The notes under the pieces are model-generated. The model saw nothing but the letters and a program-made list of their open reading frames with translations. It searched no databases and was not told where the DNA came from. A DNA stretch of 52,988 nt. Origin: a virus. Positions within the stretch are counted from its first letter, which is position 1. Every line of letters begins with the position of its first letter. The translations under genes and the position numbers were made by a program. The stretch is from IMG/VR virus record IMGVR_UViG_3300046777_001138, positions 1-52,988 of that record. One strand, written 5' to 3'. Positions 4,680 to 52,636 of this stretch are shown here, piece by piece.

Positions 4680-5154
4680 ACCGAGTCATTACACAGCATT
4701 AGACGGATCAGGTATTACTTGTGCAGATGCACAGCGAGCAATGCTTGGTAGAGATGGTTACATTGCTTACCTTCGTGGAATGGTGATTAAATATCAATGG
4801 CGATTCCTTCGTAAGGATGGATTCAAAGATATACTAAAAGACGAAGAGTGCCTTAGGATGCTTAAGGAAGAACTATCTTCCTTAGGAGTTCCTGATGCCA
4901 ACCCACAAGTTCCGATTAACACCGCCGCCGTCCACGAACAATATCTGGAGAAGGGGGAAGAAAGGGACCTACCTAGCGCCTCACTACAGGACTTGGATCG
5001 ACACCCATCGTCCGCAAGTAGAATCAGTATTTGGGGAATCGACCAATCCATTATCGCTAGCTCGGTTGGAGATACTGGTCAGCGGTGGGACTGGTTTGAG
5101 GCGGGGTCGGGATCTGGACAACCTGGCGAAAGCGATCTGCGACCTCCTAGTTAG
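4663..5154 (+). CDS. DUF3310-like protein with long overlap into rusA
   Basis: The first ~75 residues match the phage DUF3310 pattern: DPIKPSHYTALDGSGITCAD, then a GYIAYLRGMVIKYQWRFLRK core and a KEELSSLG end. Such proteins are common nucleotide-kinase-like phage accessories of unknown role. The reading frame does not stop where such proteins usually end. It continues for about 85 codons across the first two thirds of rusA in another frame, giving a Ser/Pro/Gly-rich tail. The tail is either a genuine overlapping segment or a chance extension. AGGAGGAAGG gives a strong ribosome binding site for the ATG at 4663. Confidence 0.75.
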   Translation: MKDPIKPSHYTALDGSGITCADAQRAMLGRDGYIAYLRGMVIKYQWRFLRKDGFKDILKDEECLRMLKEELSSLGVPDANPQVPINTAAVHEQYLEKGEERDLPSASLQDLDRHPSSASRISIWGIDQSIIASSVGDTGQRWDWFEAGSGSGQPGESDLRPPS

Positions 5155-5293
5155 ATGCTGTGTAATTACGGACGATTGCTACGATGTAGTGCAGGAGATA
5201 AGTCTGAAGTATCTCGGAGGATACAGAGGGGACACTCCTGCATTCGTTGATGTGTTTGTCCATGAACTGGAAGAAAAGAACAGGAAAGTCTAA
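4895..5293 (+). CDS. rusA: RusA-like Holliday junction resolvase
   Basis: A 132-residue RusA-family nuclease. PPPSTNNIWRR lies near residues 10-20, and GRDLDNLAKAICDLL near 71-85 carries the metal-binding aspartates and the conserved lysine. ITDDCYDV near 91-98 supplies the later acidic pair. The enzyme cuts Holliday junctions and branched replication intermediates, often before packaging. TAGGAG six bases before the ATG supports the start although it lies well inside the preceding frame. The stop overlaps the next start (TAATG). Confidence 0.92.
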   Translation: MPTHKFRLTPPPSTNNIWRRGKKGTYLAPHYRTWIDTHRPQVESVFGESTNPLSLARLEILVSGGTGLRRGRDLDNLAKAICDLLVRCCVITDDCYDVVQEISLKYLGGYRGDTPAFVDVFVHELEEKNRKV

Positions 5294-5595
5294 TGTCACG
5301 AAAGTTTACTTTTACCGTACCTCTTGTTCACGACAAGTCCTACGGATCACTTGAATTAACTCGACCAATTGGCAGTAAAACATGGTTGCCTTTGCCAACT
5401 GGTGGTTACATTTGTGTTGAGGTCCTTGGTACTGGAAGGACTCAGGCACAGATTAGATTTACTGCAGATAAGGATGTACCCATTATAAAAGGGGAATCAC
5501 TCAATAGGCCGAAATATGACATAAACGACTGGGGTGATGAGGAACGAATGATTGACGATAGGCATCCGGGTGATTTTGAAGACTATGTGAACTAA
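5293..5595 (+). CDS. CsrA/RsmA-like RNA-binding protein
   Basis: Residues 20-70 follow the CsrA pattern: LELTRPIGSKTWLPL resembles the beta-1/beta-2 region, VEVLGTGRTQAQIRFTADKD resembles beta-3/beta-4, and VPIIKGESL resembles the RNA-binding tail. CsrA dimers bind GGA motifs in mRNA leaders and block or stabilise translation. At 100 residues it is longer than the usual ~60: it adds about 19 residues at the N-terminus and a very acidic C-terminus (DWGDEERMIDDRHPGDFED). The key arginine of the VxREEI segment appears as lysine. It is coupled to rusA by TAATG. A chance beta-barrel similarity is the alternative. Confidence 0.65.
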   Translation: MSRKFTFTVPLVHDKSYGSLELTRPIGSKTWLPLPTGGYICVEVLGTGRTQAQIRFTADKDVPIIKGESLNRPKYDINDWGDEERMIDDRHPGDFEDYVN

Positions 5596-5606
5596 GGAGG
5601 ATGCTA

Positions 5607-6116
5607 ATGAGGTATCTTACGGAAGAGGAAGCGTGTGAGTATCTTTATTTTGATCCCACTTCAAATTGTTTGCGTAGAAAACTGACTAAGAAATTGGCAT
5701 CAGAGTCCAATTCTTCGGCGGAGTTTTACCACAAATCGAGTGGCTACCTACATGTCAAGGTTGGTAATTGTAGATTTCAAGCCCATAGGCTTGTTTATTT
5801 AATTACCAAAGGCCCTATTCCGGATGGTATGGATGTAGACCATATTGACAGGGATCGGCGTAACAATGCGCCATACAATCTTCGTTTGGCGACCAAAGCA
5901 GAAAATAGTCTGAACAGGTCAAAGTACAAAAATAATACTTCTGGTTTTCCGGGAGTTAGGTGGTTTGCTAAGCTAAGCAAATGGATTGCATATATTTCTT
6001 TTGGAGGAAAAAGGTTTCACTTAGGTGTCTACACAGAACTTCAGGAAGCGGTTGATGCAAGAAAACTTGCAGAAGTCATTTTCTTTGGTGATTTTAGACC
6101 CATACATTCCAAGTGA
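5607..6116 (+). CDS. HNH homing endonuclease with AP2-like DNA-binding domain
   Basis: A 169-residue selfish endonuclease. AHRLVYLITKGPIPDGMDVD leads into HIDRDRRNNAPYNLRLATKAEN, a classic HNH core (H, N, N) near residues 73-109. The C-terminus (TSGFPGVRWFAKLSKWIAYI) is an AP2-type DNA-binding unit. GGAGG six bases before the ATG at 5607 selects this start over the one at 5601. It is inserted between the CsrA-like gene and a replication-region gene. Two further relatives lie at 39.8 and 41.3 kb. Confidence 0.93.
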   Translation: MRYLTEEEACEYLYFDPTSNCLRRKLTKKLASESNSSAEFYHKSSGYLHVKVGNCRFQAHRLVYLITKGPIPDGMDVDHIDRDRRNNAPYNLRLATKAENSLNRSKYKNNTSGFPGVRWFAKLSKWIAYISFGGKRFHLGVYTELQEAVDARKLAEVIFFGDFRPIHSK

Positions 6117-6925
6117 AACGCAAGGTCAACCCATACAGCGAATTTTTAGTGCCATGTTCCTCCATCGACAGGAGGATCTATGTCACTTCGTCGAATAATT
6201 TCCATGGGTTGATCAGTATGCTCGGCGCTGCTTGGGGCATCGCTGAGGAAGATCGTCAGGATCTGGCTGAGACTCTACTAGAAGAGATCTTCTTCTGTGG
6301 GTACGACTGGTATGACGACTTCTACCCGATCTTGTCAAAGATCAGGGTGATTGATATTAACGATTGGCTTGCTGGAACACGACCGTCCATTTTGTTCCCA
6401 AGCTATGATCCAGCAGTGTACTTTAATGGCCTGTCTGGAGGAGTCAATTATCGTCGGCGTTGGTGTCTGGATCAGTCGCAGTCCATGCGTATTGATCAGG
6501 TTGCTGAAATGGTTATTGCCCTATGGGGTGATGACTGTGTAGCCGATATGGGTGCTTACTGTGGATGGGATGCAATCCTAGTCCATAACCATGAGCGCCG
6601 GGTAATCATTGATGTTGCGATATTCCCTTGGAACTTGACCACAGGGGCTATACGCAAGGTCCACATAGCAGCACGGAAGATTCGTGCCATGCAGGGTATC
6701 CACAAAGCGTATGGGCTAGTACCCATTCAAATAGTTGATACCACCAACGGAATCTACTGGTCGCCGGCCCATGACATTGCGATAATGGATTCCGGGAAGA
6801 TCCTGATTACGGCATCAGGGTTACCTAGTGATGAAGAGGAATCGCTGGGAATAGAACTGAGTGAACTTCGTCCTCTTGGTGATTTGAACAGGTATTTTAA
6901 GGAGTTGAAGAATGTCAATGTTTAA
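6113..6925 (+). CDS. Hypothetical replication-region protein, 270 aa
   Basis: I do not recognise this family. It begins at a GTG overlapping the HNH stop by 4 bp and has no clear ribosome binding site, so the inserted HNH gene may have replaced its original leader. The middle contains GAYCGWDAILVHNHERRVII followed by DVAIFP. Scattered acidic and aromatic residues suggest an enzyme or DNA-processing accessory, but no motif is decisive. The 3' end overlaps the Sak4-like ATPase gene by 14 bp, so it probably belongs to the recombination module. Confidence 0.75.
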   Translation: MKRKVNPYSEFLVPCSSIDRRIYVTSSNNFHGLISMLGAAWGIAEEDRQDLAETLLEEIFFCGYDWYDDFYPILSKIRVIDINDWLAGTRPSILFPSYDPAVYFNGLSGGVNYRRRWCLDQSQSMRIDQVAEMVIALWGDDCVADMGAYCGWDAILVHNHERRVIIDVAIFPWNLTTGAIRKVHIAARKIRAMQGIHKAYGLVPIQIVDTTNGIYWSPAHDIAIMDSGKILITASGLPSDEEESLGIELSELRPLGDLNRYFKELKNVNV

Positions 6926-10095: not shown

Positions 10096-10644
10096 ATGAG
10101 TATTGCTATCGCTAAGGAAGTTGCTGTGCAGTTGTTGAGCAATGCACCTGCAACAGGAATTGAAAAGATCAAGATCGCTAAGGCGATCAAGGATAAACTT
10201 GGACTTCAGGATTGGGCTACGCCCTTTGGATATATCAAGAAGCTGGAGGAGGAAGGACAACTTCACAGCAAGGATTTCTGTTACCCCGGCGCAAAGCCTG
10301 TGTATACCCCGGGTGGTGGTGGGCAACGGTTCCCCAAGCCTAACATTGCCCCTGAGGCCATGGCCAAGTTCAAGCAACAAGTCTTGGATCATTTGGCTAC
10401 CAAGCCTGACGGCAAGGACTTTAAGGATATCCTTACCCGTACCGTCGAGACTCGTGCAGCAATGAATGCTGCTATTCAGGAGTTGAAGGAAGAAGGGAAG
10501 ATCGTCTTCGCTGGGAAAGACGATGCTGGTAGCTGGTACATCGCTCTTCGGCGTACTACCCGTACTCCTGCTGTTCCTGATCCAGTGGATCCCAGCCAGC
10601 CAAAAACTTCTGGGATGAAATCGCAAGATGACTTGCCTTTCTAG
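10096..10644 (+). CDS. Tandem winged-helix protein with SSB-like acidic tip
   Basis: A 182-residue protein with two similar helix-rich units: VAVQLLSNAPATGIEKIKIA and following, then FKQQVLDHLATKPDGKDFKD and following, each ending in a short beta-wing (HSKDFCYP; KIVFAGKDDAGSWYIA). This is the look of tandem winged-helix domains. The last residues, KSQDDLPF, match the acidic C-terminal tip of bacterial SSB (DDDIPF), which recruits repair and replication enzymes. It may therefore act as the phage ssDNA- or dsDNA-binding partner of the primase-helicase. AGGAG seven bases before the ATG at 10096 fixes the start. Confidence 0.75.
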   Translation: MSIAIAKEVAVQLLSNAPATGIEKIKIAKAIKDKLGLQDWATPFGYIKKLEEEGQLHSKDFCYPGAKPVYTPGGGGQRFPKPNIAPEAMAKFKQQVLDHLATKPDGKDFKDILTRTVETRAAMNAAIQELKEEGKIVFAGKDDAGSWYIALRRTTRTPAVPDPVDPSQPKTSGMKSQDDLPF

Positions 10645-39159: not shown

Positions 39160-39798
39160 CTAACTCTCCACTTTAGGTTCCACATCGGCCAACATTAGCC
39201 TAACATCCCGTTCCGTGATCGGATCATCCACACCCAACCCAAACTTCTTCATAACTTGTTTCATGTCTAAAAGCCATGGATCCAGCCCTGAAAGGGCCAG
39301 TTTCTGTAGTAATTCGACCAAAAGTCGTGTCACTACCTCGTTTTCACCCATGTCCTTGCCAGAATCAAGCAATGATTCAACATACCACGATTGGAAGATT
39401 CTGGTCCCCTTTTCGTAGGTAGATTCCTCAATATCAATGAAATCTTCCACATAAATCGGTGAATTGATGCTTCCAGACCACTCAGCCTCAATACCATGGG
39501 AATGTAAAGCCGAAACAGTATTTTTCATCACATCTTTGAGTAGTTTAGCTATTGCACCCTTCTCGTATTTCGCTGCGGTACGGGTAGCAATTGACAAGAA
39601 GATTGGTAACCTTCCCTCATCTGCCATTTCGTCTAGCCCACGCTCTGTAAGATACACTCCCACATAATAATCACACTTGTACTTAACAAGACGCTTACGA
39701 GCTTGGTGACTAAATTCTGAATTTGCTTCCGCTATGTCCATACCCAGAATCCCATGGTAAAATTCTGGGCCAAATATTTTCTTAATCCTTTCAGGCAT
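39160..39798 (-). CDS. Hypothetical protein, 212 aa
   Basis: I do not recognise it. The start MPERIKKIFGPEFYHG was chosen because it overlaps the HNH stop by 8 bp. The upstream extension is hydrophobic in a way that suggests non-coding. The protein is mixed alpha-beta and acidic. It lies between the HNH gene and the terminase genes. Confidence 0.65.
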   Translation of the reverse strand: MPERIKKIFGPEFYHGILGMDIAEANSEFSHQARKRLVKYKCDYYVGVYLTERGLDEMADEGRLPIFLSIATRTAAKYEKGAIAKLLKDVMKNTVSALHSHGIEAEWSGSINSPIYVEDFIDIEESTYEKGTRIFQSWYVESLLDSGKDMGENEVVTRLLVELLQKLALSGLDPWLLDMKQVMKKFGLGVDDPITERDVRLMLADVEPKVES

Positions 39799-40327
39799 CG
39801 TGACGCAATTTGGCATTGTAGGCATAAGAAAAGTCTCCGTGCAGTTTAGAAGCAGCCTCACAATACGCTTTATAAGCCTCTTCAGCAGTATAAAAGGCCC
39901 CCAAATATTTCTGCTTCTGTTGTACACAAATACTTGCCGTCCACTTGTTTTTATCCCTATTCCAGCTAACTCCCTTGAACCCAGATGTATTATCAGACCG
40001 TTTCCCTTTGTTACAGCAATTTTCCGACGCTGTACTTAACCGCAAGTTTTCTATACGGTCATTAGAATGATCCCGATTTATATGGTCTATTTGCTTTCCT
40101 TCTTTAATTTCACCATTATGCAACATCCATATAATCCTAGCCCTTGATGTATATCTACCGTTTAGTCTAATATACCAGCGCCCAGATCTTTTGTGCAAAG
40201 TACCGGCTATAGATCCTGCTGCGGCAACTACTCTATTTGCAAATCCACCGTTTATTCTGTCTATTTTCCAGCGAATAACACCCGGTTCCGACTCATAAAA
40301 TAAATCATGTACGCTTAGACTGTTCAT
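39791..40327 (-). CDS. HNH homing endonuclease with AP2-like domain (second copy)
   Basis: A 178-residue endonuclease. DHINRDHSNDRIENLRLSTA is the HNH core (H, N, N), and NTSGFKGVSWNRDKNKWTAS is an AP2-type DNA-binding repeat. Its N-terminus MNSLSVHDLFYESEPGVIRW is similar to the copy at 41337. GGAGG upstream of the ATG. The 65-bp leader, including the hairpin and the TATAATG box, is shared with the third copy, so the two were duplicated together. Confidence 0.92.
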   Translation of the reverse strand: MNSLSVHDLFYESEPGVIRWKIDRINGGFANRVVAAAGSIAGTLHKRSGRWYIRLNGRYTSRARIIWMLHNGEIKEGKQIDHINRDHSNDRIENLRLSTASENCCNKGKRSDNTSGFKGVSWNRDKNKWTASICVQQKQKYLGAFYTAEEAYKAYCEAASKLHGDFSYAYNAKLRHDA

Positions 40328-41336: not shown

Positions 41337-41846
41337 TTACAGACAAGCAAACTCACCGTGGTAATCTAACACGGCGTCACAATATGCTGCATAGGCTAAC
41401 CACTTATTTTCATACGAACCTATCGTTTTTCGTTTACCCTCAAACTGCATTTGCGCACGCCATTTACATTTTGATTGCTCATAACTTACACCTTTCAACC
41501 CAGATGTGTTGTTCTTGTGCTTCCGCCGATTTGCTTGATTCTGTTTTCGTGACGCCAATCTAATGTTGTCTATGCTATCATTAAGCGTATCGTGGTTCTT
41601 GTGGTCTATTTCCATTCCGTCAGGAATTGGTCCGTTGTGCATTTCCCAAATTACTCTACCCCTAGTTACATTCTCCCCATCAACATACATTATCCAGTAA
41701 TTTTTACGCTTGTCTAAGTGTCCAGCTATATCACCAGCCCTTGCCATCAGCCTACTGTAGACAATACCAGAGTACCTATCAGTTTTAAATCTAAGAATCC
41801 CGGGTTCTGACTCGACAAAAAGCTCATTCAGTCTTAAACTGTTCAT
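41337..41846 (-). CDS. HNH homing endonuclease with AP2-like domain (third copy)
   Basis: A 169-residue endonuclease. EIDHKNHDTLNDSIDNIRLA is the HNH core and NTSGLKGVSYEQSKCKWRAQ is the AP2-type unit. It is a paralogue of the 39791 copy and shares its leader. It is the first gene of the long minus-strand operon. Confidence 0.92.
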   Translation of the reverse strand: MNSLRLNELFVESEPGILRFKTDRYSGIVYSRLMARAGDIAGHLDKRKNYWIMYVDGENVTRGRVIWEMHNGPIPDGMEIDHKNHDTLNDSIDNIRLASRKQNQANRRKHKNNTSGLKGVSYEQSKCKWRAQMQFEGKRKTIGSYENKWLAYAAYCDAVLDYHGEFACL

Positions 41847-52069: not shown

Positions 52070-52636
52070 ATGGATCCCAGTGAACTACCCCACAAACTGA
52101 TTTTCTCCAGTATCAACCGAGCTAACGCTATGCGTGGTAGCTACGCCTTAGTCCTTACCGAGGATGATCACCAGACGCTAGCAACCATGCTGATCGGGAT
52201 GTATTCAAGGAAGTACAACCCGAAACTAGGTAAGCCTAGCACCTTCCTTACCAAGTCTGCTAGGTTAGCTCTCAAGGCTCTAGCCACTACCCGCCAGAGA
52301 AGGTCTAAGCGACCTGCGATGATCCAGCCTGTACTTTATGCGCTGGATAAAGAATCCCGCCCAGAGTCTGAACAGGCAGAATCCTGTATTGAGGATCTGG
52401 ATCGACAGAAGGCTCTACAGTCCGTCAGGGATGCACTGGAGTGGCTGGAACCTAGGAAAGCAGAAGCAATCAGGCTTAGGGACTTTGAGGGTCAACGCTA
52501 CGCAACTATTGCAGCAACCATGGGGTTGAGTAAAGCTAGGGTAGCTGCACTGAGATCGGAAGGGATGGAGGAACTGAAGTTCTTCCTCAGCGGGGCTACT
52601 TGGGACGCACTTGGAGGTGACCCTAATGCTGACTAA
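52070..52636 (+). CDS. Sigma-70-like protein with region 4 HTH, 188 aa
   Basis: A C-terminal region 4-like part (LEWLEPRKAEAIRLRDFEGQ and YATIAATMGLSKARVAALRS) is preceded by a helical N-terminal half with TLATMLIGMYSRKYNPKLGK that could be region 2. The length is that of ECF sigma factors. GGAGG eight bases before the ATG. It overlaps the next sigma-like gene by 11 bp. One of a series of sigma-like genes that continues across the junction to 2020. Confidence 0.78.
   Translation: MDPSELPHKLIFSSINRANAMRGSYALVLTEDDHQTLATMLIGMYSRKYNPKLGKPSTFLTKSARLALKALATTRQRRSKRPAMIQPVLYALDKESRPESEQAESCIEDLDRQKALQSVRDALEWLEPRKAEAIRLRDFEGQRYATIAATMGLSKARVAALRSEGMEELKFFLSGATWDALGGDPNAD

Follow-up and report, generated by a model that had tools for sequence, protein, structure and literature searches.

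The window, which is the whole 52,988-base record IMGVR_UViG_3300046777_001138 (IMG/VR) of an uncultured phage, encodes a small protein that is probably a highly diverged, CsrA-family-like phage protein, and for which we infer fold, dimer formation, RNA binding, targets and timing. The initial annotation had placed an open reading frame with the motifs LTRPIGSK and ADKDVPIIKGE behind this proposal, and coordinates, strand and translation of this frame were found as described (Table 1). Phage-borne CsrA is already known; the novel part is probably the strongly diverged form, with a lysine at an otherwise invariant arginine position and an acidic tail.

Table 1. Position of the CsrA-like gene, its parts and its neighbours in the window.
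Feature	Position	Strand	Basis or remark
RusA-like Holliday junction resolvase gene	4895..5293	+	upstream of the CsrA-like gene; same neighbour in relatives
CsrA-like gene	5293..5595	+	ATG to TAA, 100 aa; motifs LTRPIGSK and ADKDVPIIKGE in the translation
N-terminal extension, residues 1-18	5293..5346	+	12/18 identical in relatives
CsrA-like core, residues 19-69	5347..5499	+	47/51 (92%) identical in relatives, pN 0.09 at saturated pS
K66 codon, at the position of RNA-contact R44 of CsrA	5488..5490	+	alignment to CsrA panel
Acidic C-terminal tail, residues 74-100	5512..5592	+	net charge -7
HNH/AP2 endonuclease gene	5601..6116	+	separates the CsrA-like gene from the gene that normally follows it; missing in the four relatives
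270-aa conserved gene, function unassigned	6113..6925	+	downstream; adjoins the CsrA-like gene directly in relatives

The start codon of the CsrA-like gene overlaps the stop codon of the RusA gene (TAATG in the window, TGATG in the relatives), so that the gene is probably translationally coupled to RusA. The block around it encodes ThyX, a dCTP-deaminase-like protein, RusA, an AAA_24/Sak4-like ATPase, a primase-helicase and a DNA polymerase, and the CsrA-like gene is probably expressed together with the replication genes. The product of the endonuclease gene matched HNH_3 and, weakly, AP2; since the relatives are without this gene, it has the appearance of a mobile insertion immediately after the CsrA-like gene. 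Three look-alike genes with an HNH-type start and an AP2-like end were seen in the window (5601-6116, 39791-40327 and 41337-41846), the latter two being classed as HNH/AP2-like by eye only. Close to both ends of the record, at 930-1493, 1484-2020 and 52070-52636, lie genes that resemble sigma factors (of region 4 type, or with sigma matches in PHROGs). The gene at 10096-10644 (+) gave a weak MarR-like match, and its product carries the C-terminal tip DDLPF (SDLPF in relatives). Tips of this kind are known from single-stranded-DNA-binding proteins.

When the first 25 kb of the window were subjected to sequence comparison, a near relative was absent among isolated phages. Four further IMG/VR contigs (L002, L003, L007 and L008) encode the CsrA-like protein with 73-74% identity to that of the window, and in all four the gene order is RusA gene, CsrA-like gene, 270-aa gene. 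These relatives are in effect one second sequence, and the profile used below rests on only two distinct sequence types. Between the window and L002, pS was 0.83 (saturated) and pN 0.175 over the whole gene, with a pN of 0.091 in residues 19-69 and of 0.24-0.27 in both ends. As residues 19-69 have remained 92% identical in spite of saturated synonymous sites, the gene is regarded as real and under selection. As judged from these substitution rates, purifying selection peaks in precisely the CsrA-like core, whose extent is that of the CsrA domain.

More distant relatives were sought with peptide patterns in viral contigs, where none was found beyond the four contigs; genome contigs yielded no relative of the protein, and phages and plasmids nothing credible. 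Two degenerate DNA patterns recovered the same four contigs plus chance matches, among them L095, whose protein sits between terminase and portal, and L176, where a comparable protein was not seen. Synteny searches via the 270-aa gene, the AAA_24 gene and the primase-helicase led to the same phages, or to remote ones without the CsrA-like gene.

The extensions on both sides of the core had been pointed out initially and were confirmed, with lengths of about 19 and about 30 residues. The C-terminal one is very acidic, as had also been stated: from residue 74 onwards, 10 of the 27 residues are D or E, and the tail of the relative has a net charge of -7 as well, despite lower sequence conservation. 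The protein ends in FEDYVN.

In library searches, CsrA was the only family named by any library that gave matches (Pfam, PHROGs and PDB sequences). CsrA (PF02599) was the sole Pfam match of the window protein (P0001), with 14.9 bits and an E value of 0.027; the curated cut-off of 27 bits was missed both by P0001 and by P0002 (12.3 bits), and the L007 variant gave no score. The sole match in PHROGs was CsrA-like (E 0.34). Among PDB sequences the sole match was 1vpz, a CsrA homolog (E 1.5, or 0.33 with the profile), in an alignment that partly covers its His-tag. NCBIfam returned no match to the CsrA-like protein.

Profiles were then compared by hhalign. Against a panel of 82 CsrAs (80 from genomes, mostly of planctomycetes, together with those of E. 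coli and P. aeruginosa), 86.5% and a score of 32.1 were obtained over L20-E68, while 200 column shuffles did not exceed 19.6 and the reversed profile reached 9.6. A more diverse CsrA set that included phage CsrAs gave 92% and a score of 36.4 over the whole core (200 shuffles: at most 16.9). In local alignment to CsrA, the window protein (P1) ranked above 2000 of 2000 shuffles, with the caveat that one real non-coding reading frame of the window scored close to it. An HMM built from the diverse CsrA set placed P1 and P2 above all 10,000 shuffles; with an HMM from planctomycete-type CsrAs alone, the two were not cleanly apart from 10,000 shuffles. In the reverse search, scores above 3 bits were reached by 52% of 110 CsrA ORFs as compared with 0.4% of 5922 other ORFs, and many of the alignments started at residues 19-20, in the first conserved strand. 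As the CsrAs in this search are kin to each other, it is taken as supporting evidence and no p-value is attached to it.

Taken together, the resemblance to CsrA is better than chance in most of the tests made, and these comparisons indicate a kinship that is probable and not formally significant. The resemblance claimed in the initial annotation therefore stood in part: it was upheld by profile-profile comparison, local alignment, reverse search, the diverse HMM and the invariant residues retained (below), and fell short with the Pfam cut-off and the planctomycete-type HMM, besides being nearly equalled by a rival domain. The comparison with PF02599 that had been suggested there was marginal for single-model matches and favourable at the profile-profile level.

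This rival domain emerged when the phage profile was run against 392 planctomycete-phylum genomes, where three hits at E values up to 0.01 were obtained, which is about the number expected by chance. One of the hits, which lies in a coiled-coil protein of 597 codons, is a member of a domain that is widespread and has no Pfam name. It seems unlikely that the core represents, as a free-standing unit, this C-terminal domain of many planctomycete coiled-coil proteins of unassigned function (motif PI.KGD....P.Y) and not a CsrA, although hhalign gave 79% and a score of 31.2 for it over residues 42-79 only (shuffles at most 19.5), its HMM scored P1 and P2 with 11.9 and 11.1 bits, above the planctomycete-type CsrA HMM (HMMER), and the conserved P73 fits. 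The domain explains only the C-terminal half of this core, and not LELTR; it stems from a search with a chance-level hit count, all members listed sit in long open frames of at least 387 codons, and it is outscored in hhalign by the diverse CsrA profile (36.4 vs 31.2). In HMMER, the diverse CsrA profile beat the domain for the window protein and not for its relative. CsrA accounts for the core in its full length, including LELTR, and is favoured over the planctomycete domain. In L115/L116 and homologues (G207:C487:4803-5060), this Pfam-less domain lies C-terminally in long coiled-coil proteins; its motif is VNLG..D...G...V ... PI.KGD....P.Y, and it was found in 66 of 149 planctomycete-phylum genomes.

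All 82 CsrAs of the panel have six residues in common beside the initiator region, namely L2, L4, R6, A36, R44 and E46. Depending on the alignment, five of these six residues are kept in the phage protein, as L20 (L2), L22 (L4), R24 (R6), A58 (A36) and E68 (E46). In RsmA, a salt bridge between R6 and E46 connects the two subunits (PMC3791407), and the pair is kept as R24 and E68. The sixth residue, R44, which is indispensable for RNA binding by RsmA, is an arginine in all 82 panel CsrAs and in nine of nine phage CsrAs; in all five phage sequences of the present family it is replaced by K66, so that the lysine reported earlier in place of the RNA-contact arginine was fully borne out. The equivalent of R44 in RsmN contacts RNA by stacking and several hydrogen bonds, and its alanine mutant loses affinity more than 1000-fold with the dimer intact (PMC3791407). 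Three changes go beyond the initial annotation: a four-residue insertion between the first and the second predicted strand, the replacement of R7 by P25 or S25, and a D in place of P37, which is also present in the CsrA of a 595-kb phage (L180).

The pattern of kept and changed residues bears on a further reading, to which we give slightly less weight than to the planctomycete domain and which is improbable as well: a CsrA-derived decoy or anti-CsrA that would pair with host CsrA in mixed dimers, impair the RNA sites that the subunits share by means of K66, P25 or S25 and an acidic, RNA-mimicking tail, and thereby switch off host Csr control. Such a mode of action by mixed dimers would follow if the changed R44 and R7 abolish RNA binding. 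The subunit-linking R6 and E46 are kept while the RNA-facing R7 and R44 are changed, the tail is acidic, and it is established for RsmA/RsmE that the RNA sites of CsrA are common to both subunits, all of which agrees with a decoy. However, lysine retains the positive charge, and the L4, V40 and V42-type contacts are kept. Very improbable is a small barrel protein that binds nucleic acids as part of the replication machinery, for instance an acidic-tailed single-stranded-DNA-binding protein, since in spite of the acidic tail and of a gene that follows the RusA resolvase near the Sak4-like ATPase, the primase-helicase and the DNA polymerase, no such family was found in Pfam, PHROGs or NCBIfam at E values up to 10, and the tail is without a DDLPF-type tip, which is found on the other gene at 10096-10644.

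As a diverged CsrA-like protein, the gene product would be expected to fold with its core residues 19-69 into a five-stranded CsrA unit and to dimerise by strand exchange. This would create two RNA sites, in each of which the opening strand of one subunit (L22, T23, R24) meets the final strand of its partner (V62, I64, K66, E68). The protein would be made probably early in infection, with the replication genes; as a dimer it would bind at GGA-like sites close to ribosome-binding sites, so that mRNAs of the host or the phage would change in translation or in stability. K66 for R44 and P or S for R7 predict weaker or shifted RNA recognition, which may even be absent, and the acidic tail may compete with RNA to tune binding, or may hold a partner. 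By such means the CsrA-like protein could reprogramme host translation or time the phage's own genes. A CsrB-like sponge RNA or GGA cluster was not seen in the window; the excess of ANGGA on its + strand plausibly reflects ribosome-binding sites. Terminase relatives gave an ambiguous picture of the host, as they occur in 30 of 392 planctomycete-phylum genomes (best 39%) and also in many isolated phages, where the best match is a methanogen virus (35%).

An arginine that is needed for RNA recognition and has been fixed as lysine under strong selection would provide a test of altered RNA binding by CsrA proteins, and the same lineage would also test whether CsrA can become an inhibitor of host CsrA. 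Should the ancestry alone be correct, the protein would be a modest extension of phage CsrA past the reach of standard profiles.

Of 2,517 phage genomes, 30 are reported to carry csrA genes (PMC7366521), and 94 INPHARED records match CsrA. The CsrA-like gene resembles phage-encoded CsrA (PHROG 9500; RsmM-type Pseudomonas phage proteins) in being a small CsrA-like gene on a phage. The nine phage CsrAs compared, however, are recognisable CsrAs with the arginine, and three of the most diverged ones still pass the Pfam cut-off, whereas the window protein does not. CsrA-domain proteins with changed N-terminal parts were observed in Vibrio phage D93 (L189:1830-2117) and Pseudomonas phage vsMR (L185); the D93 protein is annotated as hypothetical, yet it scores 49.8 bits, above the Pfam CsrA cut-off. 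RsmQ, a plasmid CsrA homologue that exerts global control of the host proteome (PMC9928087), is likewise a CsrA-type protein of a mobile element, and host control of this kind is proposed here; RsmQ resides on plasmids and its RNA binding was demonstrated by experiment, whereas RNA binding by the window protein is predicted. With CsrA/RsmA (PF02599) the protein shares core length, the order of conserved residues, five of the six invariant residues, the R6-E46 pair and the A.K.V.I pattern of the last strands. It differs from them in scoring under the Pfam cut-off, in K at R44, P or S at R7 and D at P37, in the four-residue insertion after the first strand, and in its N-terminal extension and acidic tail. 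A further diverged form of CsrA, RsmN/RsmF of Pseudomonas aeruginosa (PMC3791407), has an inter-strand insertion as well; in RsmN, a 16-residue loop lies between strands 2 and 3 and the arginine is kept, whereas the window protein has a lysine, and its insertion, of four residues, lies between the first and the second predicted strand.
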